A stretch of 64,000 nt of DNA, taken from Ceratodon purpureus (taxonomy: Eukaryota > Streptophyta > Bryopsida > Pseudoditrichales > Ditrichaceae). This document shows, one piece after another, positions 8,555-33,098 of the stretch. The stretch lies in assembly GCA_014871385.1 (NCBI GenBank), contig CM026433.1, positions 16,003,808 through 16,067,807 on the forward strand. The letters run 5' to 3'. Under the pieces are notes generated by a model that was not told the DNA's origin, ran no database searches, and saw only the letters and a list, made by a program, of their open reading frames with translations. A program made the translations under genes and the position numbers. The stretch's first letter is position 1; every line of letters begins with the position of its first letter.

Positions 8555-8926
8555 TGTGGAAAGTGATTTCCACGGTTGACACACGGAATACTAATTCCGG
8601 TAGGAAAATGATAAAAAAATTAAAAATTTTATGTTAGAAATACGGAAGTACTAAGCCTATAAGTAAAACAACCGGTTAAGCCGGTCGGCTGAATAAATAA
8701 GACCGGAAGGCCAGCCGGGTGAGATCCGGTCGTCTGCGGTGGAGGAGAGACGGTGCACCATATACAGAGCCCTGACCCGGCAGACTTAAGGATAACCACC
8801 AAAAGGTACAACGCACACGGGGATAATGGCTGCAACCATTAAAACGCCGCCGGTCGCGACCGTCCAATGATGAGGGGCTACGACCGTCCGTCATGATGAG
8901 CTACGAACGGGTGGCGCGAGGGCAGG

Positions 8927-8934
8927 TATAAAAG
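8927..8934 (+). promoter_or_regulatory. TATA box of the 5' LTR
   Basis: TATAAAAG lies in a purine-rich context 372 bases into the LTR. Transcription would be expected to start about 30 bases downstream, near 8957, which would put the LTR ORF inside the transcribed R region. Confidence 0.65.
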
Positions 8935-9133
8935 GAGGAAGAACCGCCATGCTCCTCCTTTCTCTTTGTCATTTTGTGGCACGACGGGTCCTTGCGCTCT
9001 AAGGCGGAGGGCGCAGTTAGGGTTAGACGGTAGGAGAGAGACGGTGAGACGGAAGTGTTTCCGTTAGGGAGAGATTGTGGTGAGGATCGTGCGTGCAGGT
9101 GTTACCGGAGTGACGGAGAGGAGGACTTAGCAA

Positions 9134-11000
9134 ATGGGTAGGAAAGGGAAGGAACCGGCGGCGGAAGGACAGTCGTTCAGGGTACAACGGGTAATGCCGT
9201 TGATACCGGCCGGCGAGAAGGAGAGAGCTCCTCCGGACCGCCTTAGAGTCTATGAGATGTGAGGTCCTACTGGACAAGGCATGGGGTTGGAAGCTTGCCC
9301 TTCCGGCCCAGGAGATCCTCGTCAAGAATCCCGAGAATCGAGGAACCATTCGGGGAGAGCCGGATAGTGGACGGCACAACTCTGGAGGAGACGTATGGTT
9401 TCAAGAACTCCGGCGAGGTCTCGACGCCGGAGCCCCGGGACTTCGTACACCGGTATCTCAAGGGGGCCGGAGACCCGAGAGAAGGATGGGGGCTGGATGA
9501 CATTGCGGATCCGGAGGCCCGGAGAGTAGTAGGGTTTATGAACCCTATTTCCATCCGGAAAAGCCCAAACGGATCACCAACAAGTGGGCGTCCGTTTTCA
9601 TTGGGGCCATGATCGGTGAATTCACGGTGGACTGGGGGGTCATGATGAAGACGATAGTCCCGACAGGTGGCCAATCTCCGGAAGACCAAGAAGCAGGCCA
9701 CCTGCCTTCCGTCTTTCCTCATTCACCTCTACCGTACTAAGGGGCTGTTGAGTGCTGAGGAGGTCCGGGAGTACGATGAGCTCTTAAGCTATCAGCAGTT
9801 CGCTGAGCCGGAAGAAGTGTCCGACCAGGACGACGATGATTATGTTATTGAGGTCTCCCCCACGCCGGCTAAGAGACCCCGTCCTAGCCCGGAAAAGGGA
9901 CAGCCATCCGGATCACCTCGGACTCCCGTACCGGCCAAGCGAACCCTGAACACGGAGATCCAACAGCCCACCGGACCACCGGAGCACACCGGAGATCCGT
10001 ACCAGGACTTAGTTAACCTATCGGAGCAGCGACGACGTATGCCCGGTTCTTACAGTCGACTAGGAGGCGGAGGGCCGGTTGGCTAGGGAGGTAATGATCC
10101 TTACGGGTTCGGACCGGTTGGAGGATTGCCTGAGTATTCTTCGCAAGCACCGGGACTTGGCGGTCTCCAGGAAAAGCACATGGACCGGCTAGCGAAGACC
10201 GGGAGACGAATCGGAAGCTCGAGGAGGAGGTGCGTGATGCCCGGAAAGATTTCAATGACGCCGTGACCGGGTCAGTCGAGGCCATCCGGTCGGTTCGCCG
10301 AGATCAAGGCCACTTTAGGCTCTTCCGGTAGATGTGGCCAACCAGTGCGCCGTTTACCAGGCCTTCCTGACCCGTCAACCGGATCCGACTATGAAGAATA
10401 TAATAAAGTTCATGCACGACCGGACGCAGGTGATGAAGGACACTTGGATGATGATGAAGAACCTGGTGGAAGTCCTCGGTTACGCAAGGCCGGTCCGTCA
10501 TCAGGGCCACCGGCAAATCAAGAGGATCCCAGACCACCGTCCCCAACCAGGGAACCGGCACCCGGGTACCACCCTCCAGCCTCTCCGATACGGTCGGCCA
10601 TCCGGCCAGCCCAACAGGAGGTAGGACACCCGCTGGAGGATCCTATTCCGGATACCTTGAGCAGTCTGCACACTCTACCCAACTTGGATGGAGTCGAGAC
10701 TGTTAACCCCGGAAACATTCCTTTGGACCGGACCAGAGACCACCACCGGTAGATTTTATACCGGTACAAGGGGATCTCCGGAAACGCTCCAGGTGGATCT
10801 CAGCGCAGTTCCGGTGGCGCACGATCTCCATCCCCGGGCAGTTCAAGTAGACCGATCCCGGAAGTCCATGCAAACCGTCAGCATCTGAGGCTCCGGAAGA
10901 AGGCCCCTCGTTGAAGAAACTGAAGGCGGCCACAGAAGAAGGAACGGTTGGGACGGAACCTCGGCACAGTCCCCGGCTCGATAAGCACAAGGAAGTAGGG
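9134..11000 (+). pseudogene. 5' LTR copy of the LTR-encoded ORF, frameshifted
   Basis: This is the counterpart of the 621-codon ORF at 18500-20365. The start context (gcaaATGGGTAGG) lacks one A relative to the 3' copy. The frame is broken repeatedly by small indels, leaving fragments such as the piece at 9667-10086 (MANLRKTKKQATCLPSFLIH...) and pieces around 10334-10888. Nearly all bases otherwise match the intact copy. The breaks may be decay or consensus error; comparing the two LTRs cannot settle which. Confidence 0.8.
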
Positions 11001-12062
11001 TTTAGGGATAAGGAACCGGATAAAATGGCAGCGACTAACGATGGGGCTCCAGTGCAACCCGGCTTCCAATCCGGATAAATAGCGGCAGTAACTAGGAATA
11101 GAAGGCGGCCACCGGTCCGGGATTCCCGGATCCAAGATCCGAATTTATTGGATCTCGGTGGCCACTTGGTCGCTTTAGGAACCGATAGGTTTAGTATTTA
11201 AGTTAGACGTTTTTCCAAGGCCGGGGCCTTGTTTTTGTACGCCGTTTGTTGTTGCAATTGAGAATATACTTTTGGATTTGTTGTGTCAACCGGCTGCTGA
11301 CGGGTCCGTTGCGTATGGTTGTGGTTCTATTGTCTTCAGTAGTGTTCCGGAGGAGTGTTGAACAGTAGGAAGGTCAGGAGAGCGCCCGGAGAGACTGGGG
11401 AGGTGGTCAAGCGTCGAGTGTTGACGGTTTCCAGTCCCGGAAGGAGCCCGTAGGGAAGGAGAGACGTATTGCAGTAGGGCTGGTAGTCTCAAGGACACGG
11501 AGAGCCGTGTGTACACCGGGACCCGGAAACGGACCGGTCGCTTCCTGTAGATGGGATAAAGCGGATGTCCTACTGGCAACCAATCCGGAAGGGAGATAGT
11601 ATAGTAGAATACTGTGCAGCCGTAAGGTGATGTCATTGTAGTATGATTTCCGTATCCGTAACCGGCACTGAGTAGTTATCCGGGACCGGTCCATAGCCGT
11701 ACGGAAGGGATTATTACTCCACTTCTCGGGTGGTAGATAGGAACAGTGGGGTGTCCAGCCACTATAAGTCACGGGACGGTGGAAAAATCCAGCCACTTGA
11801 AAGGATAGACGGATCAGTGGGAACCGGCCACTAGTCTAAAAAGCCGGAAATAGGAACGAGGCAAAAACTACCGGATTGTCCAACAGGCTGTAAGACGGTG
11901 TACGGTCGGACACGGGTGGTGATTTCCGTTAAAATCTAAAAGGAATAAAACTATAGGTCTTCGTGGGAACGAACACGGAGTGGTTTACTTTGGAGGGTAT
12001 TTAGTGTCAATTAAGTGCCTTCCGGAGGAATACTGATACCACGTCGTGCTACATGTGATTTT

Positions 12063-12079
12063 TGGCGCCGCTGCCGGGG
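12063..12079 (+). other. Primer-binding site, tRNA-Asp type
   Basis: TGGCGCCGCTGCCGGGG starts 10 bases after the 5' LTR end. It is complementary to the 3' end of plant tRNA-Asp(GUC) (CCCCGGCAACGGCGCCA), with one C:A mismatch at the centre. Primes minus-strand DNA synthesis. Confidence 0.8.
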
Positions 12080-12147
12080 ATCTATATGATTTTCTTTCTC
12101 CGGATTTCTACGGTTGTCACTTACCCAAGTCAGGTTGTAGAAAACGC

Positions 12148-13700
12148 ATGAATCCGAATTCTGAGCCGGAAGGAGTACGGAGGTCTAGTAGAAGAAGAAG
12201 GGGTGATCAGGAGACGGAAGCCAGACCATTCGTCACATTAGAGCAGAATTCATTGAAGACACAGATCAAGAGATAGCCGGGACTTCCGGATCCGGAGGTC
12301 AGGGTTGGACAGTACCATCCGGGCCGTTGGCCGGAGGACCGGGTAGCGGGTCTTCCTATGGCCCGGACGTTCTCCAGACTGAAGTATCGGAAGTTCAGGG
12401 GCGATGGCCGGGAGGACGTGGACGAATGGCTAAGCGAGTTCAACGCCACGGCTGCTGCCAACCAAGAGGACGAAGCAATCAAGTTACGGTTGTTCCAGGG
12501 ATTACTCAAGAAGGAGGCACTCCAGTGGTACCAAGAGGAACCGGACAACGTGCGAAGGAGTTGGGGTTTGCTATCCGATGCCTTCCGGAGGGCCTTCCGG
12601 GAGGTAGGAGGAGAAGCCGCACATTGGGAAAACTTAGTAAAATCCGGATGGAGCCGGAAGAGTCAGTCCGCCGGTACGGACAGAGGGTTAGGAGTTTAAT
12701 TCATAACTAAGTCCCGGAATTGCAAACAGTATCCAGGTAGAATGGTACGTCGCTGGGTTACCGACCGGATGGGGTTCCAAGTAGGCAGATCCGGCCACAG
12801 ACTTTACCGGAGGCCATGGAGGCCGCCCAGAACTATGAAAACTCCAAGCAGTCCATACGGCAGTACCGTAAGCAGGGAAGACCTCTAGACGTCTACGAAA
12901 GGTCCGTAGGAACCCGGATTCTAGTTCAGAATCCAGTGGATCCGGCTCCGAAGATAGCTCGGAAACCGGAAGCAGCAGCAGTGAGGAGGACGCTCACGAC
13001 GAAGGCGTCAGGTAGCAAGGGCTACCGGAAGGACAAAGGAACGGACGATAGTCCGAGTAAAGGAGGAATACCCATCGGAGAAACGGATGATCAAAGATCT
13101 GGTGAACAGCCATTGAAGAACTCAAAGTCCAATGGCGGAAGAGAAGAAAGCACGGAAAGCGCTGCCCACCGTCCGGGAACAATGTGTGGGCACCAACTGC
13201 GGAAAGCCGGGACATACAACCGGGAATGCCCACACGGAGCGCCCAAGAGAGTGCAGGTTGTGGATGAAGAGGGTCAGTATTCTTTGCGGAACCTGCTTAT
13301 GAAGAGGAGGAAGTGGAGATGCTACCGGTTTACCAGGTAAACCCGGCCTATGGCCGTGGACGGATGATACAGCCGGTTATCAGACCTCGACCCGGAATGG
13401 GCTATCCATCGGTGGACATCCGGCCCCCGCCGGCACGACCACCGGTCTCAGTGGAACGGCAGTTTGGATGCTGTTATATTTGTGGAGAAGCCGGTCATTA
13501 TGCTAACCAATTGTCCACACCGAGGAGGTCAAGGCGCACCGTTGGAACTTCCGTGTCAAAACTGTGGTCAGTACGGCCATAAGTCACCCCAATGCCAACA
13601 ACCGGTTAGACCTAGGGCTATCTATAAGCAAGTGGAAGAACCTCCACGGGAGCGTACCGGGCTCAACTACGGTCACAAAGACGGGGTAGAGAATCCGCCA
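12148..13700 (+). pseudogene. gag: gag region (capsid and three zinc knuckles), frameshifted
   Basis: A likely start is ATG 12148 (MNPNSEPEGVRRSSRRRRGD). After a shift, the capsid-like Retrotrans_gag core lies at 12358-12699: KYRKFRGDGREDVDEWLSEF, then KLRLFQGLLKKEALQWYQEE. It continues in another frame near 12640-12710 with RMEPEESVRRYGQRVRSLI. Nucleocapsid zinc knuckles follow. One lies near 13190-13235 (CGK.GH...C, with a shift inside it) and one near 13470-13515 (CYICGEAGHYAN then a shifted C). The third, near 13550-13590, is intact (CQNCGQYGHKSPQC). Gag forms the particle and binds template RNA. At least four small frameshifts interrupt the gene. Confidence 0.8.
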
Positions 13701-13715
13701 AGTTGACGGTTACCG

Positions 13716-14207
13716 GTGGAACCACGAGGAGAGACCGGCGTGGGTATCCATCAGGTCAGTTCGCGTAGTTCCACCCGGAGACAGGATTCAGAAAAGAAGA
13801 AGAGGAAGTCTGGTGTTCGGACCAGGTCACAGAGGAAAGAGAGTAGCCGACCGGAATCTTCAGAAACTTCCGGGGAATCAGAGAAGGAGGTGCCCCCGGA
13901 GACGGTCCCGGTTGAAAAAGGGGTCAAGACCCTACCAACCATGCCGGACATTGGACCGGAGGTAATTGCTGGGTTACCCCAAGTACAGGAGGGCCGGAAG
14001 GTGACATTCAGCGAGATTCCGGAAATAATCCAACCGGAGGTCCGGGCGAAAGCCGACAGATACGACATCCTTCAAGATATTCAAGCCCAGCCGGCCAATG
14101 TCACCATAGGACAACTGTTACATGATAATCCTAATTATCAGAAGCAGGTTAAGTCCGGCTTAATCCGGACCCGGAACGGAAGATTAGCTGCCTTCCGTCG
14201 CAGTTAA
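13716..14207 (+). pseudogene. gag-pol linker segment, basic and charged
   Basis: An open stretch of 163 codons joins the zinc-knuckle region to the protease. It is rich in Lys, Arg, Ser and Glu at first (DSEKKKRKSGVRTRSQRKES). It then becomes more ordered (KADRYDILQDIQAQPANVTI, HDNPNYQKQVKSGLIRTRNG) before a stop at 14205-14207. The following protease frame is offset, so a frameshift or a translational recoding step separates them. Similar short motifs precede the protease in many plant gypsy polyproteins, which I infer rather than match exactly. Confidence 0.6.
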
Positions 14208-14217
14208 TTTTGCCGAG

Positions 14218-15939
14218 ATGGAGGATTTCGGGGCTCCAGAAATAGCTGTGGAGATCGACGGATGTATTATCCAGAAGGTACCGGTAGATGGAGGATCCGG
14301 AGTAAATCTACTACTGGAGAGTACGGCCAACGATTTAGGGTACACTGCCTTTGAGCCTACCAATCAGACCCTACGGATGGCAGACCAGTCTCGAGTAGTA
14401 CCAGTGGAAAAACTGTCGGCAGTACCGACAAAGATTTCCGGACTCACTTACCCGCTCAACTATTTGGTTATCCGGGTGGAGGAAGGAAATCCGTTTCCAC
14501 TGTTACTCGGACGGCCGTGGCTATATCTAGCCGGAGTCAAGGTAAATTGGGCGAAGAAGGCTTTTACTTTTGGGGATCCGGCTGTTTTGCTATCGTGGAA
14601 ACCGGAGCTCCATCTGGGGGAAACAAGTGAGACGGATGGTTACACTTCCGATTGGACAGGGTCAGAAAACTCGGATTCCCTGCAATCGTATCATGTTCAA
14701 GAGTTCCGGGAGGTATCAGAAGAAGATCTGGGATTCCGTAACCCGGTACCTGAACAGAAGCCGGATGGAACCGAAGTACCGAACCGACCGCCGGAAGGCA
14801 GGAAGGAAGATGACAGGGCCTTAGGAGAAGCAAACGTTCCATTGACCTCCGAATGGATTAGAGGACAGTTCGCAGATGGGATAATCAAAACAGGAATATC
14901 CGGGTCAAGGACCAGTGACTTACCCTGGTCAGCCCTTCCGGGGTCCGTAGGAACGGATGCTAGCGAACCGGTCAAGAATGTGGTAGCACCGGAAGATTAC
15001 GAAGCAGTGAAGACGGGAGCCGGTAGGGCTTTCTATTTGGGAAAAGGACTGACGGACCGGGAGCGGGCACAGTATTTGGAACTGCTTACGGAATATGATG
15101 ACGTCTTCGCCTGGCTCCCATCGGATCTGGTGGGTATACCGCCGGAATTGGGCGAACACCACATCGACCTAATGGAGGGAGCGGTTCCGGTTCGCCAAAG
15201 GCAGTACCGGCTCAACCCAAAGTACTCCATGATGGTGAAGGAGGAACTAGATAAACTGCTGGAAGCCGGTTTTATTTATCCAGTGAATAACTCCGAGTGG
15301 GTGTCACCGATTGTGGTAGTACCAAAGAAAACGGGTCCGGATGGTAAAGTCAAAATCCGGGTATGTCAGGACTTCCGGAAGCTGAATGCAGCCACGAAGA
15401 AGGATCATTTCCCTTTACCCTTCATCGACATGGTGCTCGATCACGTGGCCGGTCAGGAATGCTTCAGTTTTCTAGATGGGTTTTCCGGATACAATCAGGT
15501 GTCCATCCGGAAGGAGGACCAACTGAAAACTACTTTTACCACCGATTGGGGTACCTACGCTTTCAACCGGATGCCTTTCGGATTGTGCAATGCTCCCGGA
15601 ACGTTTCAACGGTTGATGATGGACATCTTTCAGGATTTCTTAAAACACTTCCTGGAAGTTTTCATTGACGACTTTGCGGTGTTCAGCCGGTGGATGGAAC
15701 ATCTGGACTATCTCCGGAAAACGTTCCAGCGATGCCGGGAGACTAAACTCAAGCTCCATCCGGGCAAGTGTTTTTTTTGGTATGTTAGCCGGACTATTGC
15801 TCGGACACATAGTCAGCCGGAAGGGAATAGCAGTGGATGTAGCAAAAGTGATAGTCATGTTGGCCCTTCTTGCTCCCACCAACCTCCGGGAACTCAGAGG
15901 ATTTCTGGGGTGTGTGGGATACTACCGGAGGTTCATTGA
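14218..15939 (+). pseudogene. pol: pol part 1: aspartic protease and reverse transcriptase
   Basis: The retropepsin-like domain lies at about residues 1-130. Its active site is VPVDGGSGVNLL, with Gly where most retropepsins have Ser/Thr (D-S/T-G), and the conserved C-terminal piece is LLLGRPWLYLAGVKVNW. An acidic linker follows. The reverse transcriptase begins near DVFAWLPSDLVGIPPELGEH and carries VRQRQYRLNP, GFIYPVNNSEWVSPIVVVPK, RVCQDFRKLNAATKKDHFPL, FLDGFSGYNQV, FNRMPFGLCNAPGTFQRLM and the catalytic box VFIDDFAVFS. The frame departs from RT at a run of eight T residues (about 15771-15778), after which the translation is meaningless up to the stop at 15939. The true RT continues in the overlapping frame that starts upstream of there. 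Confidence 0.9.
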
Positions 15940-17899
15940 GAATTATGCCCGGTTGGCAATGCCACTAACGGAGCTACTCAAGAAGGAAGAAGAGTACCTC
16001 TGGACGGAAATCCGTCAACAGGCTTTTGAAGAACTGAAGAGACGGTTGGTCACAGCCCCTATACTAGCACCACCGGACTGGTCGAAATCTTTTCATGTCA
16101 CTTTGGATGCATCCGGTTGGTGTGTGGGAGCTATCCTATGGCAATTTGATGACGAGGGCCGGGAACGACCCATCTATTATGCCAGCCGGCAGATGAATCC
16201 AGCCGAGAAGAATTACACAACAACCGAACGGGAGGCTCTAGCCGTCATTTATGCGTGCAAGAAGTTTCGCCATTACCTATTGGGGTACAAAGTCATCTTC
16301 CATACGGATCATGACTCGCTGAAGTATCTAGTCAACAAACCGGATCTGTCCGGAAGGTTGGCCCGGTGGATATTACTTCTTCAGGAGTTCAACTACGAAG
16401 TTATTGTCAAATCCGGGAAGTCTAACCTCAATGCAGATTATTTGTCGCGACAACGGGGAAAAGAGAGCAAGGAGGAGATATCTTCAGAGTTTCCGGATGA
16501 ATTTCCGGAGGAATACCCGGTTGGTACCAGTATACAGGATATACCGGACCCCCGCGACCTTCCGGTCGTAGGAGGGACGTCTTCCGTCTACCGAATTCAG
16601 GAGGACGAAGGGGAAGACCAGGATTTTCAGCGGATTAAGAACTATCTCCAGACTCAGAGGTATCCGGAAGGCCTGAGTAGGGAGGAGAAAAGTGTGTTTC
16701 AGCACCGGGTGGCACCGTACTTTCTGGTCGGAGAATTGCTTTTCAAGCTAGGGGCGGATGAAAAACTCCGACGCTGCCTAGAACCCATCTATCGCCGGAA
16801 GGTCATCCGGGCTCTGCACGATGGACCGGCCGGAGGACACTATGCATCCGTCATCACCGTACAGAAGATCCGCGAGGCCGGATACTGGTGGCCACACCTT
16901 CACCGGGATGTTCATCAATTTATAAAAGAATGCGATCCCTGCCAACGGATAGGAGCTCCGGCCGTACGGCATCACTGGCCGTTAACTCCCATTGTTCCAC
17001 TAGCACCGTTTGAAAAATGGGGAGTGGATTTTATTGGGCCAATTCAACCGTTAGGCACTCAGAGGCACCGGTACATCATTTTGGCGACGGACTACGCCAC
17101 GAAGTGGGTAGAAGCCAGAGCCACCCGGAAGAATGATGCCGAGACATCCGCCCGGTTCATATTCGAAAGGATAATGATGCGATTTGGCCATCCGTTGGAG
17201 ATAGTGAGCGACCGGGGAACACATTTCCTGAACGAAGTGGTGGCCGGTCTGACCAACCAGTACGAGGTCAAACACCGGAAGACCACACCGTACAATCCTA
17301 AGGCGAACGGATTGACGGAACGTGCCAACGGAATAATCTGTAAGATTCTGACCAAGGTGGTGACCTCACATAAGACGGACTGGGACCGGAAACTGACATC
17401 GGCGGTCTATGCGTACAACACGGCACACAAGAGTACAACCGGACGGACTCCGTATTATCTGGTATACGGACAGGAGGTACTTCAGTCCATCGAGACGGAA
17501 GTAGAGACGTTGAGGGTACTCGCAGCCAACCACGGAGATAAAACGGATGCACTCGACGACCGTCTACAGGTCATCGACCGGATGGAGGAAGACCGGATGG
17601 AGGCATTGGAACGGACAAAGGAGGTCCAAGCCAAAAGGAAGGAAGTGTATGACAAGCGAATCACAACGGATAAAGGAATCGAAGAAGGAGGATTGGTTCT
17701 AGTCTATGACAGCCGGTACAAGAATTTTCCGGGTAAGTTACATACTCGCTGGATGGGACCGTTCCGGGTTGATAAGATTTATTCCAATGGGTCATTACAA
17801 CTTTCAGATCTAGAAGGATATCCAATGGATACTAGGGTGAATGGATCCCGGGTCAAACTGTACAGACCGGATGACGTCCGCGAGGACGCTCACGGGTGA
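15775..17899 (+). pseudogene. pol: pol part 2: end of RT, RNase H and integrase
   Basis: This frame carries the RT end (GHIVSRKGIAVD, LRGFLGCVGYYRRFIENYA). RNase H follows with HVTLDASGWCVGAILWQ, EKNYTTTEREALAVIYACKK, FHTDHDSLKYL and NLNADYLSRQ. Integrase has the HHCC zinc finger (HDGPAGGHY ... CDPCQ) and the catalytic triad Asp in WGVDFIGPI, Asp in IVSDRGTHF and Glu in NGLTERANG. The C-terminal part ends with GGLVLVYDSRYKNFPGKLHT, RWMGPFRV and VNGSRVKLYRP, a GPY/F-type module. No chromodomain is evident. The stop is at 17897-17899, just before the polypurine tract. Integrase inserts the cDNA copy. The whole 2.1-kb frame is open, the longest intact piece of pol. Confidence 0.92.
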
Positions 17900-17910
17900 A
17901 AAAGGGGTAA
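17898..17910 (+). other. Polypurine tract
   Basis: GAAAAAGGGGTAA abuts the 3' LTR. It primes plus-strand cDNA synthesis. It overlaps the end of the integrase stop codon. Confidence 0.75.
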
Positions 17911-18290
17911 TGTGGAAAGTGATTTCCACGGTTGACACACCGGAATACTAATTCCGGTAGGAAAATGATAAAAAAATTAAAAATTTTATGTTAGAAATAC
18001 GGAAGTACTAAGCCTATAAGTAAAACAACCGGTTAAGCCGGTCGGCTGAATAAATAAGAGACCGGAAGGCCAGCCGGGTGAGATCCGGTCGTCTGCGGTG
18101 GAGGAGAGCCGGGTGCAGTCCATATGACAGAGCCCTGACCCGGCAGACTTAAGGATAACCACCAAAAGGTACAACGCACACGGGGATAATGGCTGCAACC
18201 ATTAAAACGCCGCCGGTCGCGACCGTCCAATGATGAGGGGCTACGACCGTCCGTCATGATGAGCTACGAACGGGTGGGCGCGAGGGCAGG

Positions 18291-18298
18291 TATAAAAG
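18291..18298 (+). promoter_or_regulatory. TATA box of the 3' LTR
   Basis: TATAAAAG lies 380 bases into the LTR and about 200 bases upstream of the LTR ORF start. This promoter could drive the ORF directly, and could also read into the flanking DNA after 21422. Confidence 0.65.
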
Positions 18299-18499
18299 GA
18301 GGAAGAACCGCCATGCTCCTCCTTTCTCTTTGTCATTTTGTGGCACGACGGGTCCTTGCGCTCTAAGGCGGAGGGCGCAGTTAGGGTTAGACGGTAGGAG
18401 AGAGACGGTGAGACGGAAGTGTTTCCGTTAGGCGAGAGATTGTAGTGAGGATCGTGCGTGCAGGTGTTACCGGAGTGACGGAGAGGAGGACTTAGCAAA

Positions 18500-20365
18500 A
18501 TGGGTAGGAAAGGGAAGGAACCGGCGGCGGAAGGACAGTCGTTCAGGGTACAACGGGTAATGCCGTTGATACCGGCCGGCGAGAAGGAGAAGGAGCTCCT
18601 CCGGACCGCCTTAGAGTCTATGAGATGTGAGGTCCTACTGGACAAGGCATGGGGTTGGAAGCTTGCCCTTCCGGCCCAGGAGATCCTCGTCAAGAATCCC
18701 GAGAATCGAGGAACCATTCGGGGAGAGCCGGATCAGTGGACGGCACAACTCTGGAGGGAGACGTATGGTTTCAAGAACTCCGGCGAGGTCTCGACGCCGG
18801 AGCCCCGGGACTTCGTACACCGGTATCTCAAGGGGGCCGGAGACCCGAGAGAAGGATGGGGGCTGGATGACATTGCGGATCCGGAGGCCCGGAGAGTAGT
18901 AGGGTTTATGAACCCTATTTTCCATCCGGAAAAGCCCAAACGGATCACCAACAAGTGGGCGTCCGTTTTCATTGGGGCCATGATCGGTGAATTCACGGTG
19001 GACTGGGGGGTCATGATGAAGACGATAATCGACCGACAGGTGGCCAATCTCCGGAAGACCAAGAAGCAGGCCACCTGCCTTCCGTCTTTCCTCATTCACC
19101 TCTACCGTACTAAGGGGCTGTTGAGTGCTGAGGAGGTCCGGGAGTACGATGAGCTCTTAAGCTATCAGCAGTTCGCTGAGCCGGAAGAAGTGTCCGACCA
19201 GGACGACGATGATGATGTTATTGAGGTCTCCCCCACGCCGGCTAAGAGACCCCGTCCTAGCCCGGAAAAGGGACAGCCATCCGGATCACCTCGGACTCCC
19301 GTACCGGCCAAGCGAACCCTGAACACGGAGATCCAACAGCCCACCGGACCACCGGAGCACACCGGAGATCCGTACCAGGACTTAGTTAACCTATCGGAGC
19401 AGGCGACGACGTATGCCCGGTTCTTACAGTCGACTAGGCAGGCGGAGGGCCGGTTGGCTAGGGAGGTAATGATCCTTACGGGTTCGGACCGGTTGGAGGA
19501 TTGCCTGAGTATTCTTCGCAAGCACCGGGACTTGGCCGGTCTCCAGGAAAAGCACATGGACCGGCTAGCGAAGTACCGGGAGACGAATCGGAAGCTCGAG
19601 GAGGAGGTGCGTGATGCCCGGAAAGATTTCAATGACGCCCGTGACCGGTCAGTCGAGGCCATCCGGTCGGTCGCCGAGATCAAGGCCACTTTAGCTCTTC
19701 CGGTAGATGTGGCCAACCAGTGCGCCGTTTACCAGGCCTTCCTGACCCGTCAACCGGATCCGACTATGAAGAATATAATAAAGTTCATGCACGACCGGAC
19801 GCAGGTGATGAAGGACACTTGGATGATGATGAAGAACCTGGTGGAAGTCCTCGGTTACGCAGAGGCCGGTCCGTCATCAGGGCCACCGGCAAATCAAGAG
19901 GATCCCAGACCACCGTCCCCAACCAGGGAACCGGCACCGGTACCACCTCCAGCCTCTCCGATACGGTCGGCCATCCGGCCAGCCCAACAGGAGGTAGGAC
20001 ACCCGCTGGAGGATCCTATTCCGGATACCTTGAGCAGTCTGCACACTCTACCCAACTTGGATGGAGTCGAGACTGTTAACCCCGGAAACATTCCTTTGGG
20101 ACCGGACCAGAGACCACCACCGGTAGATTTTATACCGGTACAGGGATCTCCGGAAACGCTCCAGGTGGATCTCAGCGCAGTTCCGGTGGCGGCACGATCT
20201 CCATCCCCGGCAGTTCAAGTAGACCGATCCCGGAAGTCCAGCAAACCGTCAGCATCTGAGGCTCCGGAAGAAGGCCCCTCGTTGAAGAAACTGAAGCGGC
20301 CACAGAAGAAGGAACGGTTGGACGGAACCCGGCACAGTCCCCGGCTCGATAAGCACAAGGAGTAG
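18500..20365 (+). CDS. LTR-encoded 621-aa protein, retrotransposon ORF1-like
   Basis: A single uninterrupted ORF lies entirely inside the 3' LTR. ATG 18500 is the first good start after the TATA box (18291). The N-terminus is basic (MGRKGKEPAAEG). A folded-looking region runs to about residue 220: KAWGWKLALPAQEILV, TYGFKNSGEV, ITNKWASVFIGAMIGEFTVD, MMKTIIDRQVANLRKTKKQA, TCLPSFLIHLYRTKGLLSAE. Its pattern (G..VD.G.II...I....KK....PSLI..L) resembles the 'putative plant transposon protein' domain found in extra ORFs of plant gypsy elements such as Ogre; I infer this and have not run a search. A Pro/Ser-rich acidic linker follows. A coiled coil lies at about residues 320-410 (RETNRKLEEEVRDARKDFND), then a second Pro-rich linker. 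The basic C-terminus (KKLKRPQKKERL) could be a nuclear signal. It shows no gag, protease or polymerase motif. Confidence 0.75.
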   Translation: MGRKGKEPAAEGQSFRVQRVMPLIPAGEKEKELLRTALESMRCEVLLDKAWGWKLALPAQEILVKNPENRGTIRGEPDQWTAQLWRETYGFKNSGEVSTPEPRDFVHRYLKGAGDPREGWGLDDIADPEARRVVGFMNPIFHPEKPKRITNKWASVFIGAMIGEFTVDWGVMMKTIIDRQVANLRKTKKQATCLPSFLIHLYRTKGLLSAEEVREYDELLSYQQFAEPEEVSDQDDDDDVIEVSPTPAKRPRPSPEKGQPSGSPRTPVPAKRTLNTEIQQPTGPPEHTGDPYQDLVNLSEQATTYARFLQSTRQAEGRLAREVMILTGSDRLEDCLSILRKHRDLAGLQEKHMDRLAKYRETNRKLEEEVRDARKDFNDARDRSVEAIRSVAEIKATLALPVDVANQCAVYQAFLTRQPDPTMKNIIKFMHDRTQVMKDTWMMMKNLVEVLGYAEAGPSSGPPANQEDPRPPSPTREPAPVPPPASPIRSAIRPAQQEVGHPLEDPIPDTLSSLHTLPNLDGVETVNPGNIPLGPDQRPPPVDFIPVQGSPETLQVDLSAVPVAARSPSPAVQVDRSRKSSKPSASEAPEEGPSLKKLKRPQKKERLDGTRHSPRLDKHKE

Positions 20366-21312
20366 GGTTTAGGATAAGGACCGGATAAAATGGCAGCGAC
20401 TAACGATGGGGCTCCAGTGCACCCGGCTGCCAATCCGGATAAATAGCGGCAGTAACTAGGAATAGAAGGCGGCCACCGGTCCGGGATTCCCGGATCCAAG
20501 ATCCGGAATTTCTGGATCTCGGTGGGCCACTTGGTCGCTTTAGGAACCGATAGGTTTTAGTATTTAAGTTAGACGTTTTTCCAAGGCCGGGGCCTTGTTT
20601 TTGTACGCCGTTTTGTTGTTGCAATTGAGAATATACTTTTGGATTTGTTGTGTCAACCGGCTGCTGACGGGTCCGTTGCCGTATGGTTTGTGGTTCTATT
20701 GTCTTCAGTAGTGTTCCGGAGGAGTGTTGAACAGTAGGAAGGTCAGGAGAGCGCCCGGAGAGACTGGGGAGGTGTCAAGCGTCGAGTGTTGACGGTTTCC
20801 AGTCCCGGAAGGAGCCCGTAGGGAAGGAGAGACGTATTGCAGTAGGGCTGGTAGTCTCAAGGACACGGAGAGCCGTGTGTACACCGGGACCCGGAAACGG
20901 ACCGGTCGCTTCCTGTAGATGGGATAAAAGCCGGATGTCCTACTGCGAACCAATCCGGAAGGGAGATAGTATAGTAGAATACTGTGCAGCCGTAAGGTGA
21001 TGTCATTGTAGTATGATTTCCGTATCCGTAACCGGCACTGAGTAGTTATCCGGACCGGTCCATAGCCGTACGGAAGGATTATTACTCCACTTCTCGGGTG
21101 GTAGATAGGAACAGTGGGGTGTCCAGCCACTATAAGTCACGGGACGGTGGAAAATCCAGCCACTTGAAAGGATAGACGGATCAGTGGGAACCGGCCACTA
21201 GTCTAAAAAGCCGGAAAATAGGAACGAGGCAAAAACTACCGGATTTGTCCAACCGGCTGTAAGACGGTGTACGGTCGGACACGGGTGGTGATTTCCGTTA
21301 AAATCTAAAAGG

Positions 21313-21318
21313 AATAAA
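21313..21318 (+). terminator. Poly(A) signal of the 3' LTR
   Basis: AATAAA lies 105 bases before the LTR end, with a matching site at 11943-11948 in the 5' LTR. It defines the likely R/U5 boundary. Confidence 0.55.
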
Positions 21319-21422
21319 ACTATAGGTCTTCGTGGGAACGAACACGGAGTGGTTTACTTTGGAGGGTATTTAGTGTCAATTAAGTGCCTTCCGGAGGAAT
21401 ACTGATACCACGTCGTGCTACA

Positions 21423-22741
21423 TATACTCCATAGTTAATAAGATTCACTTAAGATTAGAAGTGAAGAAAACTCAATCGAGAAAAGTGGAGTTGAGTTCTT
21501 TTAAGTTTATTTTAAAGTATACATGTTGATCTATGTTATTTTCAGACTAATAATTTTTTTATATCATTTGGGTATTTAATTTGGTGGATTCCTTAATTGT
21601 TGGTATGCAAAGCACTATCTACTTGCAATAAACAATTTGATTCAAACTTGGTGGGATTGAAGGTAAGTCTAATAAACATGTTTATTTCTAATTTAAGTTT
21701 AAATATTATAATATCTAAATTCTAGTCTACTAATCTTTCATTTACATCTTATCCCCTAAAAGGTCAAACTTCTAAAATGGGCTTTTTGAAAATTCGGGCA
21801 GGTTTCTACGATGTCAGTTTAGGATGTGAGTTTCTGATTTTTTTTGTAGACATAGGGAATTGCAAGAGCTTTGGAGGAGTATAATCTTTTTTTGCACTAA
21901 ACATTGAAGAAAATATTTATGGTGCCCGAAGCGGTTTTTTTTACTTCTCGAGCACCTCCAAAATTTTGATACACCCTTCAACTACCTTTGGGATTTTTAG
22001 TGCAAGTAACTAACATAATTGGTTTTGAGGTTATAAAATAAAAATCTTATATTGTGGAAGATTTTCATTCTATAAAGAGCCAAAGTTTGTTCATTTTTTT
22101 TGGTCAAGCTTGAAAAAAACTTTTTCTTTATCAAATAAAAGATAAAACATTTTGTTTTTTATTTAAATTTTTTAAATTTTTATGGAACCTCTAGAGTGCG
22201 CATACACTCCCAACATTGAGAACGCCATATTCCTAGAGATCACAATGATGTGGAGGTGTAAGAAATTCCAGGGTGAGGCTGCGGAGACAAGGGCTCAATT
22301 CCCTGCGGCCACAGGGTCGATAGCCATCGATGTCAGGTCTATCAGCTTTACTGCGAGGTTGGTAATTATTAGGTGTTTGTTTGTTCATGGTGGTGCAATT
22401 TCTTGTTTCAGTCTAAGCGGTTTTTTTCGGTTTCGGATGCTGTGTGGAGAATTGGACTGATGCTAATTTGGCTGTTGTAGCTGAATTGGACATTTGTTGT
22501 GCTCTCCTTGCTATGGAAATTGCACTCTTCGGGATTGTCCCAAGTTACTACTGAGTGGCGCACTAATTCCTAGTAAGTGAGGAAGAGCTTAACGTTTTGC
22601 CACGAAGACGATCTACATAAACCCACTTCATCAGCAGAACCGTTATTTGATTTTTGGTGTTATTCGATTATCTAAACTGGGAGCTGAGATCACACAAGCT
22701 AGTGCCTAAGGATTTGCTATCTGGGGGTGTTCACTTTGAAC
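21423..22741. other. AT-rich intergenic DNA with one coding-like patch
   Basis: It is mostly AT-rich, with phrases shared with the dispersed AT-rich repeats elsewhere in the window (for example 'gtgcaagtaactaacat' near 22000). A patch of higher GC at 22250-22360 reads CKKFQGEAAETRAQFPAATG then SIAIDVRSISFTAR on the plus strand. It ends at a GT that could be a donor (22358-22360). It may be a captured exon fragment; I do not recognise it. Confidence 0.35.
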
Positions 22742-23584
22742 TTAACCCCTAAACGGCCATTGTCCTAGAATGAGCGTTTTTGGACTTTGGGTAGGTTCCT
22801 AAAAATTCAAATTTACTTGTTTTTTGGAATTGTTTTGTGGAAAACAAATCAATTTGAATTGTTTGTGGAAAAAAAGGTTTTACAAGAGGTTTATGGGGAT
22901 ATTTTTTGGATGAAGTGAGGAAAAGTTATGGGACTTAAAAGATTTTAGCCAATCTTTGGGCAGGCTCCCAGCCATTGTGAATGCTGCAATTTCCCAAAAT
23001 CTGCCAAAATCTGCCCGAATTTGCCTAAGAAAAAACTTTGAAATTCCACCAAAAATTGAGATTTTAGTGTTTTCAAAAATAAAAAATCACTAAATAGAAG
23101 AGGCACTAGAGCATGTTTCTACGGTTTGGATTTTCAATCTAAGAATGTTTCGTATGCTATTTTTATAATTAAAAAACGGCCTTTGTATGTGAATTTCTGC
23201 ATACCCCCTTGTAGAAATTGATGATTTTCTCAAGATTCCACACCTTGCATGGGCATGAGATTCGTGGACATGTACCTAACTCACCTAGGAACAAGAATCT
23301 AAAGAGGCTCATTCTAAATCTACTCAAAAAAATGGTTTTCTTGGACCCCAAAAGACTGTTGTCCCCTTTTCGAAGGTTAAAAAACTTTTTCTTCAACTTT
23401 GAATGTTATGATCTTTCAAATGTAAGAAATGAGAGTGTGAGATTTGGTAGGCATATAGACATAGAAGTTAGATACAAGATCTTATGGTTGGAAATACCAA
23501 AATTGGTTCCGATTTTGTATTATCCGGCTTGCTTTCAAAAGGGACTATTTTGAGCAAAAATACCATTGGGCCTTTAGGGGTTAA
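22742..23584. mobile_element. MITE-like element, TTAA target site and CCCCTAAA ends
   Basis: TTAA at 22742-22745 is followed by CCCCTAAACGGCCATTG. At the other end GGGCCTTTAGGGG precedes TTAA at 23581-23584. The inverted ends therefore read CCCCTAAA(C)GGCC and are bounded by TTAA on both sides, the arrangement of piggyBac-type elements (TTAA duplication, CCC-starting TIR). The interior (about 835 bases) encodes no transposase that I can recognise. Confidence 0.55.
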
Positions 23585-24262
23585 TGTTGCTGAAAGCATT
23601 GCATGCAGTTCGGAGATGTAATTTATAAGATATACCGGGATGCATTGAGAAGAGTGAGATATAGTAAGTGGCATAAAAACCGCTCATATTTAAGATTGGT
23701 AGGCTCGGTGGGGAGTTATTAAAGAAATCAAATTTTGGAAGATGTTTAAAGTATAGAGAAAATTGGACCAAGTGGAATAATTAATTTTAGATTAATACTG
23801 AATTAATTATGAATTTTGGAAAGAGAACTTGTAGGTGGCTCAAACACCGCTCAGCCTAAAATGTACACTACAAATACATAGAAATTCGAAATTGGAATCT
23901 ATAATGTACCTCCTGCTTGGACATGTGTAGACCACTATTCGGGAAGTTTCTAATACAATCTAGCTATTATCCCCTTTTCCATAAAAGCATTCGATAAATT
24001 TTTATGATATCTACATGATACCTAGGTGATACCCATGTGATACTTAGGTAATATTTAAAATACGAGTCGGAAAAAATCCTAACTCTTTCAAATTGAATAG
24101 GTAATTTGACAACTTCATTCGGTTGATTTACAACTGATTGCTGGATCTCCCCAATCATTGGTGTAGTCTGCGGTTTCTAGTGCCGCGCGGGTTTTGAGCC
24201 ACCTACTCTAGTTGAAGGTCACAATGGAAATTTGATGGATGGATAGTTACAGCTGTTGTAAG

Positions 24263-24839
24263 TTAACCCCTAAACGTCCTCACCTATGTCCAATTTAGGT
24301 AGTTTTGCAAAGACACATTAAAAAATGCAATTAATATGAATATTTAGAACTTGATGTATGAATAAAAATTGTACATTTTGATTTTTAGATTCTATCTATA
24401 CGGTTAGATCTATGACTTCTATTACTAATCTTTATTTATAAATTTTGAAACATAATATAAAAAAATGTTTTATAATTCAATTACGAATAAGATATTGACA
24501 AGAAGTAGATGAAATTTGTTGTGATGGGTCAAAATGTAGTACTTTAGGTGTAGTGATTTTTGGAGATTTTTTGGATGCTTGATTTTATGAGTTTATTTTT
24601 TCAAGAACACTTTTAGACTAAAATCTTCAAATTTTTGGATGAAACACTGCAACACAAAATGAAGCATAATTTCTTCAAAAATTGTTTCCTTTTCGATCGG
24701 ATGACACATACATGAAGCTAACTTCCCATAAAAAATTCAATAAAAAAATCACACCAGAAGAAGTGCATGATGAATGAGAAAATGCAAATGTAACATGTAC
24801 ATCAGGTCAAAAGGGCTTGCTTGGGCAGTTAGGGGTTAA
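24263..24839. mobile_element. MITE-like element, second TTAA/CCCCTAAA copy
   Basis: TTAA at 24263-24266 followed by CCCCTAAACGTCC, and GGGCAGTTAGGGG before TTAA at 24836-24839. Same ends as the copy at 22742, with a shorter interior of about 570 bases. AT-rich and non-coding. Confidence 0.5.
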
Positions 24840-25445
24840 TCTCTTCACATGGTCCAATTCTACAGCTCAATCTGGTGCATTAGTGTTTAGTCTTGCACTT
24901 TGATCAGAATTAAGATACCATTGTTTTATTTCCTGATTTATTGCTCTAGCGCAACTTGATTTAGTTACAATTTAGAGTGAACAGGGTGTGGAAGTCAAGT
25001 GTCAGGATGCAAATTGGTAACGAGTTCCAAGAGGTAGCTTGTCAATGAGCAATGGCATGTGCACATGTTGGAAAGATGAAGGATTGAATTACAGATGGGA
25101 GTTCAAAAATAATAAGAACTGGTACAGCTTTGAGTTTTGAATTTGGTGTTGAGTTAAGATGAGATGAATGGAAAGCCTTCTCAAAAGGAAATTAAATGAA
25201 GGAGCGAAAGAATTAAATGTCAAATTGAGTTCCATATGTCATTGTATCATTTCTTACTAAGGAACAAGCTCTCTAGCTTGGTCCATAACTTTTACATTAT
25301 TCTTTAATCAGGCCCTGAACCTTTACATTCATATCCAATTATGAAAATTATGAGATCGCTAAATAAGCCTACCAGTATCGTTTTTTTGAAGGCGTCCCTT
25401 TCTACGCACATTAATTCCAATTGATTGTATCGGTTCCATTCCCTA
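24840..25445. other. AT-rich intergenic DNA
   Basis: No gene or clear repeat boundary seen. Confidence 0.5.
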
Positions 25446-26214
25446 ACAAGGCCTGTGAGACCTCAAGGTTCACCTACAAATACAAAACTTGCAGAAAGTC
25501 GAAACTAAAGTATATGGTTCTAGGTTAGAGTATGAGCATATACAAGTTGAGAAAGAAGTGCATCAAGCCAACATCAAATATAAGCAAAATCATGTAGCAT
25601 GGTCAATTGAAGCAAAGCACTACATTTGTATTTAAAGAATTAGAAGTAGAACATCACAAGGTAGAAATTACACAACACAAATTACAAATAGAAAATTGTT
25701 TACAAAATTGATCAATGAAGTTTTGATCACAACATATTCTTAAAGTATTTGTTACTTGTCCAAGCAAAAAGACCTAGTGTACTCAAAAGATAGTGGCTAT
25801 TTGAGTCTAATGTCTAGATCTTTTAAAACGAGGTTGAAAGTTTTGAAGTTCTTCTAGTTGAAATGAAATTGTTGCAGTAAGAGTTGATGTAGTTTTTTGC
25901 TCCCATGATATAGTGTTTGAGTCCTTCAATTCTTTAAGAAGAACTTGGGCATGCTATAAATTCACAAATGAACAAATTATATTGGTAACGTATCACAACA
26001 TACATTGATGATGAAACCAGTATTTATATTGCAAATTTGTCACAAAATTTTGGGACCATGAAACCCTAGAAATGCAAAGTCGTCAGTTGTTGGCTTGATG
26101 CACTACTTTTTCTACTTGTATATGCTCATACTCCTACCTTGAACCCTATACTTTAGTTTCAACTTTCTCCGAGTTTTTTATTTGTAGGTGAAGCTTGGGG
26201 TCCCATACGCCTTG
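25446..26214. mobile_element. Foldback (long terminal inverted repeat) element
   Basis: The left arm 25446-25572 and right arm 26089-26214 are reverse complements at roughly 85% by eye over about 125 bases. Landmarks in both are CAAGGC at the tip, TTCACCTACAAATA, GAAACTAAAGTATA, AGTATGAGCATATACAAGT and TGCATCAAGCCAAC innermost. The spacer of about 515 bases is AT-rich and non-coding. No clean target-site duplication was found at the tips, so the superfamily is unknown. Confidence 0.75.
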
Positions 26215-26722
26215 TTTTTTTTACTTCAAGAATAGACATATATCTTTGTTTTGACCGCATGGATTTTTATTGTAACAAACAATGGTTTATCAAAAAAATA
26301 AAATTAGTATTAAAAATAACATGAACATGTGTTCATTATACAATGTTTTTCACAATGCTACGCTTTTTATTAAATCTAAAATTTGGTGCACAAGTAACTA
26401 ACATCATGTACATCATTTTGGTACAAAACCTCCAACATGTATAGTGCAAAAAAATTACTCAAAGAGAAGTCAAAGTCAGCTCATCATGTTTTGAAAGAAT
26501 AAAAAAGAACAATATTTCTTACTTCAAACTCTATAATTTTCTAATTCACGCGGTCAAATTTATTGAAATTTTCTTGTCCATGATCTTTTAGAAGCCTTAA
26601 GTCAACTCCTGCGGTTAGAGATGCAAAAAGAGTTTAACTTTTGGTTTGTTCACTCTTGCTTCTGAAATGATAGTTTCTGGAGTGTTTTTGATGAGAAATG
26701 GTCATGGCCGATTAGGGGTTAA
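26215..26722. mobile_element. Partial MITE-like copy ending in TTAGGGG-TTAA
   Basis: It ends GGCCGATTAGGGG then TTAA at 26719-26722. Its body resembles 56090-56575 by eye (shared phrases: 'caaaacctccaa', 'ataatgcaa/atagtgcaa', 'actttgacc/ttttgacc'). Its left end was not located; the foldback element lies immediately upstream and may have inserted into it. Confidence 0.4.
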
Positions 26723-31384: not shown

Positions 31385-32370
31385 CCTCCAGAAGGAAATA
31401 AATGAGGAGAGTGGGAAGTTAGTATAAGGTCATCTAAACAAAATGGCCAAATTGCCTATTGAAATTCCTTGTTTTAGGTTGAAATTTGAATAAAATTTGA
31501 GATAGATTATATTCATGTGAGGTCAAGATGAATAGGTGTTTCAAACCAATTGTTTTTTTTTAAAATAGAGGAAGATTACTAATTGTCTTGGAAAACCCCC
31601 CATTCACTACTTCAAGGTTTCAGCTTTAAGGTTCAAGAAATGAGTCAAAACAAAGAAACAAATGCACCGCATTTCTTCCATTTAATTAAGTTTATGTTTG
31701 CGTTTTCAAAACATTCACAGCACCAGATACATATTCATACCATGGCAAATGCATGTACGCTAAGTCTAATAGAAGATTTACGACTTCAATTTCATGACCT
31801 TAAGAAAGACCATGAAATTTTACAGTTTGAAAACTTTAATAATATAATGATTTCCTTGATAGAGTGATAAGAGGAAATTTTAGGAGCATTATATAAAAAT
31901 CAATTTGTGTTATAGTAATTATTAAATATATATTTTAAAGAAAAACATAAATTTTATCTCAACTTTACTGATTGAAGATTCCAGTAATGGTATAAACCGG
32001 TCAATATTGCTATAAGTGATAGTTCAATGTCGAGGAGTTGAAAACTTTGAAGCGTTTTCAAAATTTTCATGTTTAAACATTTATCAACTAATTTTCCAAA
32101 GGTATTCTCAAAATTTTAGAAAGGAAATGTTTATTCTTTGCAAGTGCTAGGGGAAGAGCGTTTTGGAGTGTGCCACTGGGAGTGTGAGTAGGCTGTCACC
32201 TGACAGGTTCTAATTCAGAAAATCACCCATAGTTAACTGTCAAGTGGGATGGAAACCAACATTCATGCAGTTTGAACGAAATATACAGTTTTTGATCATG
32301 TGTTGTTACTGCTCCTGTTTTATGGAAAAAAATAGGAAAATGAATCAAAAAATGAAATAAAAAATTAATT

Positions 32371-32630
32371 AGGAAAATGAATTAGTTGAATTCAGAAAAT
32401 GAATGTATTGAATTAGGAAAATGAATTAATTAAATTAGGAAAATGAATGTATTGAATTAGGAAAATGAATGTATTGAATTAGGAAAATGAATTAATTAAA
32501 TTAGGAAAATGAATGTATTGAATTAGGAAAATGAATGTATTGAATTAGGAAAATGAATGTATTAAATTAGGAAAATGAATTAATTGAATCAGGAAAATGG
32601 ATTAATTGAATTAAGAAGATTATTTAATTA
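32371..32630. repeat. 22-bp minisatellite with higher-order pattern
   Basis: About 12 units of AGGAAAATGAATNNATTNAA plus TT. Two unit variants, one with TAATTAAATT and one with GTATTGAATT, alternate as variant A, B, B, and this trimer occurs twice in succession. The array directly abuts the 235-bp duplication at 32633. Confidence 0.85.
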
Positions 32631-32632
32631 TG

Positions 32633-33098
32633 AGGCCTTTCAAACCCATCGAGCGGAGCGAGAAGGGTTTGAATAAGGGCAACGGGTCCGGTAGGTCCCG
32701 TTGCCCGTTAAGTAATTTTAGGGTTTACTCAAAACAACGATAGCGGGGTAGCTAGGGTTGATCTCATTTAATTTTGGGTTTTATAGCCCCTATTTATCAT
32801 CCAAATAATGTTAATATAAATAAAACTCAAAATTATCAAAATCAAAGAATTAAGATGCAAAAATATAAGGCCCTTCAAACCCATCGAGCGGAGCGAGAAG
32901 GGTTTGAATAAGGGCAACGGGTCCGGTAGGACCCGTTGCCCGTTAAGTAATTTTAGGGTTTACTCAAAACAACGATAGCGGGGTAGCTAGGGTTGATCTC
33001 ATTTAATTTTGGGTTTTATAGCCCCTATTTATCATCCAAATAATGTTAAATATAAATAAAACTCAAAATTATCAAAACCAAAGAATTAAAATGCAAAA
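32633..33098. repeat. 235-bp tandem duplication containing GC-rich hairpins
   Basis: Copies at 32633-32863 and 32868-33098 are near identical (a handful of differences). Each has a GC-rich head in AT-rich surroundings. The head contains AAACCC...GGGTTT arms around GAGCGGAGCGAG, and a palindrome at 32677-32706 and 32912-32941. In the second copy the palindrome is perfect: 13-base arms GGGCAACGGGTCC/GGACCCGTTGCCC around GGTA. The first copy has one arm mismatch. No ORF. Confidence 0.9.

Follow-up and report, generated by a model that had tools for sequence, protein, structure and literature searches.

The superantigen gene sag of MMTV is described as lying in the 3' LTR (PMC3026287). The extra ORFs of plant LTR retrotransposons are assigned to the internal region in the sections of a 2020 review that deal with them (PMC7264820); these include the env-like ORFs of Athila and Bagy2 and the antisense ORFs of Grande, RIRE2 and Retand. 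TRP28, the Transposase_28 protein of Retand and Grande, is described as being encoded in antisense between pol and the 3' LTR (PMC11963269). The rice elements Retrosat2, RIRE3 and RIRE8 have LTRs at least 3 kb long, together with an additional ORF, ORF0, which the passages on these elements describe as being located upstream of gag-pol and not as part of the LTR (PMC3485330). In the VANDAL transposons, the element-encoded anti-silencing protein VANC goes together with a short motif that is greatly enriched in the element, and the VANC motifs are reported in tandem repeats of non-coding DNA (PMC5735166).

The locus analyzed here lies in a window of 64,000 nucleotides from the moss Ceratodon purpureus (contig CM026433.1, positions 16,003,808 to 16,067,807). 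The analysis shows a Ty3/gypsy-type family, each 3.5-kb LTR of which bears a protein gene under selection, at the same place in paired, solo and diverged LTRs; an LTR is an unusual place for a protein gene. By its arrangement, a protein gene inside the unusually long LTR of a reverse-transcribing element, the locus can be likened to MMTV sag, but MMTV is a vertebrate retrovirus with an LTR of about 1.3 kb, and the moss ORF follows the LTR's own TATA box, a position in R being favoured over one in U3. It shares with the Athila, Bagy2, Grande, RIRE2 and Retand ORFs a conserved, possibly regulatory extra protein beside gag-pol, and differs from them in sitting in the LTR, on the sense strand; unlike TRP28, it gives no Transposase_28 match. 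Long LTRs and an extra ORF upstream of gag-pol are common to the rice elements and the moss family. The likeness to VANC lies in an element-encoded protein accompanied by an enriched short motif, here CCGG, which is spread evenly over coding and non-coding DNA, in contrast to the VANC motifs, and the binding of which by the LTR protein is putative. Our literature search, which lay mostly outside the subscription journals, found MMTV and other retroviral cases, and no plant LTR with an ORF inside it was recognized.

Architecture of the element in the window

The window contains a Ty3/gypsy-type LTR retrotransposon at positions 8555–21422, with LTRs of 3499 and 3512 nt ending in TG..CA (Table 1). 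The Pfam matches RVT_1, RT_RNaseH, Integrase_H2C2 and rve follow each other along 14218–17899 in the Ty3/gypsy order, and paired TG..CA LTRs, a primer binding site, a polypurine tract and 5-bp target duplications (the latter in other copies) were all found. The primer binding site is presumably of the tRNA-Asp type. No match to Pfam Gag was obtained in the gag region, none to a chromodomain in 15665–17899, and none to Rfam within the window. The gag region starts only about 95 nt beyond the 5' LTR, and the start of gag-pol is more than 1 kb downstream of the LTR ORF. Elsewhere in the window, there are a 319-codon ORF (632–1591, no Pfam match at E 0.01), an array of 11.4 copies of a 22-base unit (32318–32669, Tandem Repeats Finder) and pieces matching a filament-like plant protein family with a score below the family cut-off, which suggest a land plant or a relative of one.

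Table 1. Features of the retrotransposon and of its LTR gene, in window coordinates
Feature	Position	Strand	Evidence or remark
5' LTR of the window copy	8555..12053	+	Pairwise alignment; many one-base indels, ORF version frameshifted
Primer binding site TGGCGCCGCTGCCGGGGATC	12063..12082	+	Sequence; directly after the 5' LTR
gag region	12149..13706	+	ORF list; several broken frames in the window copy
Zinc knuckle within the gag region	13464-13706	+	Pfam zf-CCHC
Protease region (by position, unmatched) and reverse transcriptase	14218..15939	+	Pfam RVT_1, 2.2e-24
End of reverse transcriptase, RNase H, integrase	15665..17899	+	Pfam RT_RNaseH, Integrase_H2C2, rve, in order
Polypurine tract GAAAAAGGGGT	17898..17908	+	Adjoins the 3' LTR; also in other 3' LTRs, some of them differing by one base
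3' LTR, 3512 nt, TG...CA	17911..21422	+	Pairwise alignment, sequence
23-bp imperfect direct repeat upstream of the TATA box	18220..18269	+	Tandem Repeats Finder; mostly kept in diverged LTRs
TATA box TATAAA, predicted LTR promoter	18291..18296	+	Sequence
Predicted 5' leader, ATG-free	18321..18499	+	Sequence
LTR gene, 621 aa, ATG start	18500..20365	+	Wholly inside the 3' LTR
DDDDDVIEV and PAKRPRP motifs	19202..19258	+	Sequence and alignment
Second basic patch KKLKR	20285-20299	+	Sequence
Conserved block TGCAATTGAGAATATACTTTTGGAT	20620..20644	+	Invariant in the window LTR and 4/4 further LTRs
Conserved block near the LTR end	21316..21368	+	Invariant runs 21316-21342 and 21345-21368 in the window LTR and 4/4 further LTRs

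The sequence-only reading of the window had reported that the 5' LTR carries the same gene with frameshifts. This is literally so (25 indels versus 2 substitutions in the ORF stretch), but as a biological feature it is most likely an artefact. The two LTRs of the window copy differ by 51 one- or two-base indels, 36 of which adjoin an identical base, and by only 9 substitutions, and no target duplication was found for this copy. The element and its 3' flank to position 26316 form an inverted near-copy of a locus about 115 kb away on the same contig (G000:C13, 15.89–15.91 Mb). One aligned stretch of 9931 columns shows 73 gap openings and 14 mismatches, and another of 4100 columns shows 19 gap openings and 0 mismatches. 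The twin locus (L001, L003) is flanked by a proper TATAC duplication and shows no frameshift, and there is a stop at codon 314 in its 5' LTR. Because the differences are rich in indels, the target duplication is missing and the twin is free of frameshifts, the best reading of the frameshifts and of the left junction is that they stem from assembly errors or from a recent, poorly sequenced rearrangement. The whole stretch 8555–26316 is a probable misassembly or recent inverted duplication.

The LTR gene and its product

The intact long ORF read inside the 3' LTR is present there, and in the window copy it stands between a TATA box at 18291 and an AATAAA at 21313, as had been noted. When this LTR was shuffled 500 times with a first-order Markov model, the longest ORF had a mean of 128 codons and a maximum of 262, and chance was rejected as the source of the 621-codon ORF. 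Codon usage was not decisive, since the frames of the LTR tail correlate with pol too.

The predicted protein consists of a conserved N-terminal domain (residues ~20–225), an acidic and proline-rich linker, a predicted long helix (332–398), a strongly conserved block (398–450; 85% identity to the protein P0002 and 70% to P0004) and a proline-rich basic tail. The motif DDDDDVIEV, which is missing from P0004, we take to be SUMO-interaction-like, and PAKRPRP to be nuclear-localization-like. The protein belongs to no Pfam family at its cut-off. Identity with Transposase_28 was rejected, no match being found at E up to 10; a resemblance to Transposase_32, which we assumed as a lead only, was dropped in the absence of a Pfam hit, and so was an origin from gag, as there was no significant match to the gag piece. 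The structure models were poor (mean pLDDT 42 and 47). The product would be a nuclear accessory factor acting in trans.

Distribution of the gene in the assembly

Searching the LTR protein against the assembly that contains the window (362 Mb in 151 contigs, one of 110.5 Mb) yielded 2664 first-look candidates, the best 71 of which were scored; this list, being ranked by protein, favours copies with an unbroken ORF. In all the 71 best matches, residues 1–621 were matched in one frame at 95–100% identity. Other copies do carry the ORF at the same LTR position, as had been predicted, and no family member lacking it was found among the copies examined. There was no internal stop in 59 of these matches and a stop in 12, and 21 pairs among them were spaced 9.30–9.45 kb apart, as expected of LTR pairs.

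Fifty loci were fetched, 30 to begin with and then 20 picked among the lower-scoring matches. They comprise 20 5' LTRs, 20 3' LTRs, 8 solo LTRs and 2 truncated copies; L027, the polypurine tract of which has a variant base, was re-assigned by eye to the 3' LTRs from the script's 'solo' class. All 8 solo LTRs have identical 5-bp flanks (low-complexity GGGGG in one case), and the ORF is open in 6 of them: the proposal that solo LTRs keep the gene thus held among the loci fetched. L057, a diverged LTR that brings the number of solo LTRs to nine, is flanked by ACATC at either end and carries 2 stops. The ORF is complete in both LTRs in 10 of the 14 LTR pairs, one of which (L046/L047) lies on two short contigs and was paired by its matching flank. 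In another element (L021/L022), both LTRs have an identical stop at codon 469, and the LTR gene was probably already broken when this element moved, which suggests that it received help in trans. Three LTR genes on the same strand, in equal steps of 9374 bases, were also observed at G000:C6:2710476-2731086, in what looks like a tandem LTR-internal-LTR-internal-LTR array.

Selection on the ORF and diverged relatives

Among 35 insertions, dN/dS was 0.35 (dS 0.049, dN 0.017, 595 pairs), or 0.34 without L034, which may be the same insertion as L037; within the 14 LTR pairs it was 0.40 (25 changes, 11 of them synonymous and 14 non-synonymous). Since these two values are so placed, 0.35 versus 0.40, and the list favours intact copies, the close copies alone do not separate selection along the lineage from sampling.

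Divergence offers a stronger test. Three diverged LTRs, L055, L057 and L056, were taken from the matches of a search with P0004 (72 scored) on account of their difference; their proteins show 70%, 67% and 49% identity, respectively, to that of the window ORF. In all three, the ORF is preceded by the same TATA box and followed by the same LTR tail and end; the flanks of L056 nearly match, and L055 is without its LTR start. The ORF lengths (1860 nt in L055, 1893 in L056 and 1875 in L057) are all multiples of three. In the nine comparisons involving these LTRs, dN/dS was 0.21–0.37, and in a tenth, between the window ORF and the closer L058, it was 0.41. Neutral simulations including strong transition and CpG bias, which were matched to L055 and L057, gave mean values of 0.55–0.96, with 0.46 in the lowest single run, and 17.5–19.0 stops on average versus 2 and 2 observed in L055 and L057. 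All three ORFs contain stops, and L056 is decayed, with eight in its matched part. In a nucleotide alignment with cheap gaps, only 2 of 14, 5 of 14 and 29 of 98 ORF gaps in L057, L055 and L056 were multiples of three; in the MAFFT alignment, by contrast, all the printed gaps were. The non-coding LTR tail evolves more slowly than the ORF.

Three metagenome relatives were recovered among 5.8 billion proteins, at 80%, 98% (truncated) and 41% identity. Those at 80% and 41% are open over 621 and 612 aa, and none of 300 neutral runs was free of stops at either divergence; for the relative at 41% this argument is weakened, since the entries of a protein database are open frames from the outset. A regional protein search recovered P0002 and P0003, not P0004, and searches for relatives in viral_contigs, genome_contigs and plasmids led nowhere. 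Judged from these sequence comparisons, the ORF is a real gene under purifying selection. A dN/dS below 1 had been anticipated and was observed over the diverged subfamilies, below the neutral values of the two matched cases, and no value near 1 was found in the copies examined.

Promoter, RNA ends and the position of the ORF in the LTR

TATAAA occurs once in the LTR, upstream of the ORF, and this TATA box is kept in all 34 insertions with sequence at this place, as well as in 4 of 4 further LTRs. The direct repeat preceding it is a possible enhancer. Transcripts would start at about position 18320, and the leader, which is without ATG in 33 of 35 insertions, leads to a start codon in the context AGCARAATGG. 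The AATAAA at 21313..21318 (+ strand), which had been taken for the poly(A) signal, did not stand up to comparison: apart from the window copy, only the near-identical twin has it among 35 insertions, 32 of which read AAGAAA at this position, and each of 4 further LTRs examined reads AGGAAA or AAGAAA.

The block at 20620–20644 is a candidate plant-type poly(A) region or second promoter; the T/G-rich stretch before it resembles, in our estimation, a plant poly(A) region. No invariant run of the tail exceeds the one in the block near the LTR end (permutation p 0.021); when the 35 insertions were compared, the longest low-diversity run of the tail did not reach significance (p 0.26). A scan for promoters of the sigma-70 type, with a model not meant for plants, led nowhere. 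A position of the ORF in R is favoured, if unproven, because of the invariant TATA box upstream of it.

CCGG enrichment

The element (window 8555–21422) contains CCGG at four to five times the expectation from base composition, in coding and non-coding parts alike and with sharp borders: there are 22–29 sites per kb in U3, the ORF, the tail and gag-pol, versus 1.2 per kb elsewhere in the window, and one site in the 179-nt leader. The non-coding LTR has 36 sites, as compared with 10.8 in dinucleotide shuffles (the highest of 2000 having 24), and the ORF and two pol stretches have 54, 46 and 29 sites versus 29.5, 20.1 and 17.9, respectively, in synonymous-codon shuffles. The three diverged LTRs have 18.6, 12.9 and 18.3 sites per kb; 27 of 34 sites are kept in L055, 27 of 34 in L057 and 11 of 34 in L056. 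Preferential conservation of CCGG was not established, and among the family copies it is kept no better than other tetramers (0.92 versus 0.92–0.96). The excess may reflect a binding motif or a mutational bias. It is conceivable, as a speculation to which we assign a low probability, that the product of the LTR gene recognizes the CCGG-rich DNA of its own family as a sequence-specific factor, either anti-silencing or activating, and that the R-borne gene in paired and solo LTRs forms a dispersed bank of trans-acting genes keeping the family awake.

Discussion

The explanation that we regard, taken as a whole, as reasonably probable is that the LTR promoter, with the TATA box at 18291, would give an RNA whose first long reading frame is the LTR gene. 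The gene of the 5' LTR would then head the genomic RNA, and that of a 3' or solo LTR would be a free-standing gene. With a transcript end downstream of the ORF, the latter would lie in R and be copied to both ends of each new insertion. Gag-pol might be translated by way of splicing, reinitiation or a second promoter. The product would be a nuclear accessory protein serving the family in trans, by regulating transcription, silencing or RNA handling; such a role would fit the helical and basic make-up of the protein and the element with the same stop in both LTRs.

It is also possible, with a lesser though appreciable probability, that the ORF lies in U3, the genomic RNA being made from a second promoter downstream of it and the ORF being a separate, TATA-driven LTR gene, as in the case of MMTV sag. 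A start downstream of the ORF would give a leader of normal length, given the distance of about 95 nt between the LTR and gag; the blocks at 20620–20644 and 21316–21368 could serve as signals of a promoter or an RNA end, and the AATAAA at 21313 is not kept across the family. The sole TATAAA of the LTR, however, is the invariant one upstream of the ORF, and neither a second TATA box nor an upstream repeat was found in the LTR tail. Placement in R, as set out above, is the reading that we favour.

That the ORF might come from the host by capture, or be a mere passenger, without a role in the element and open by chance or by recent spread, seems very improbable to us: the dN/dS of 0.21–0.37 over deep divergence versus 0.55–0.96 under neutrality in the matched cases, the open relative at 41% identity and the presence of the ORF in 3 of 3 diverged subfamily LTRs examined all argue against it, even if the protein is unrelated to the transposon domains of Pfam, most copies are young, as judged from their 95–100% identity, and one element (L021/L022) was duplicated despite the stop in its gene. 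An assembly artefact might be suspected from the window element itself, an indel-noisy inverted near-copy of a locus 115 kb away that is devoid of a target duplication of its own. We give this almost no credence, in view of the dozens of other copies in this assembly that have target duplications and of the relatives in independent metagenome collections; for the family, an artefact of the noisy window locus was rejected on the strength of the other full-length copies.

The usual view of solo LTRs is that they are lifeless regulatory remnants. With a protein gene under selection in the LTR, they would count as genes, and a family of elements could be sustained by its own relics; a retroelement would also be seen to have a means of duplicating a gene each time it inserts. 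As hundreds of insertions may be compared in one genome, the role of the extra ORFs of plant retrotransposons would become directly testable in this family.
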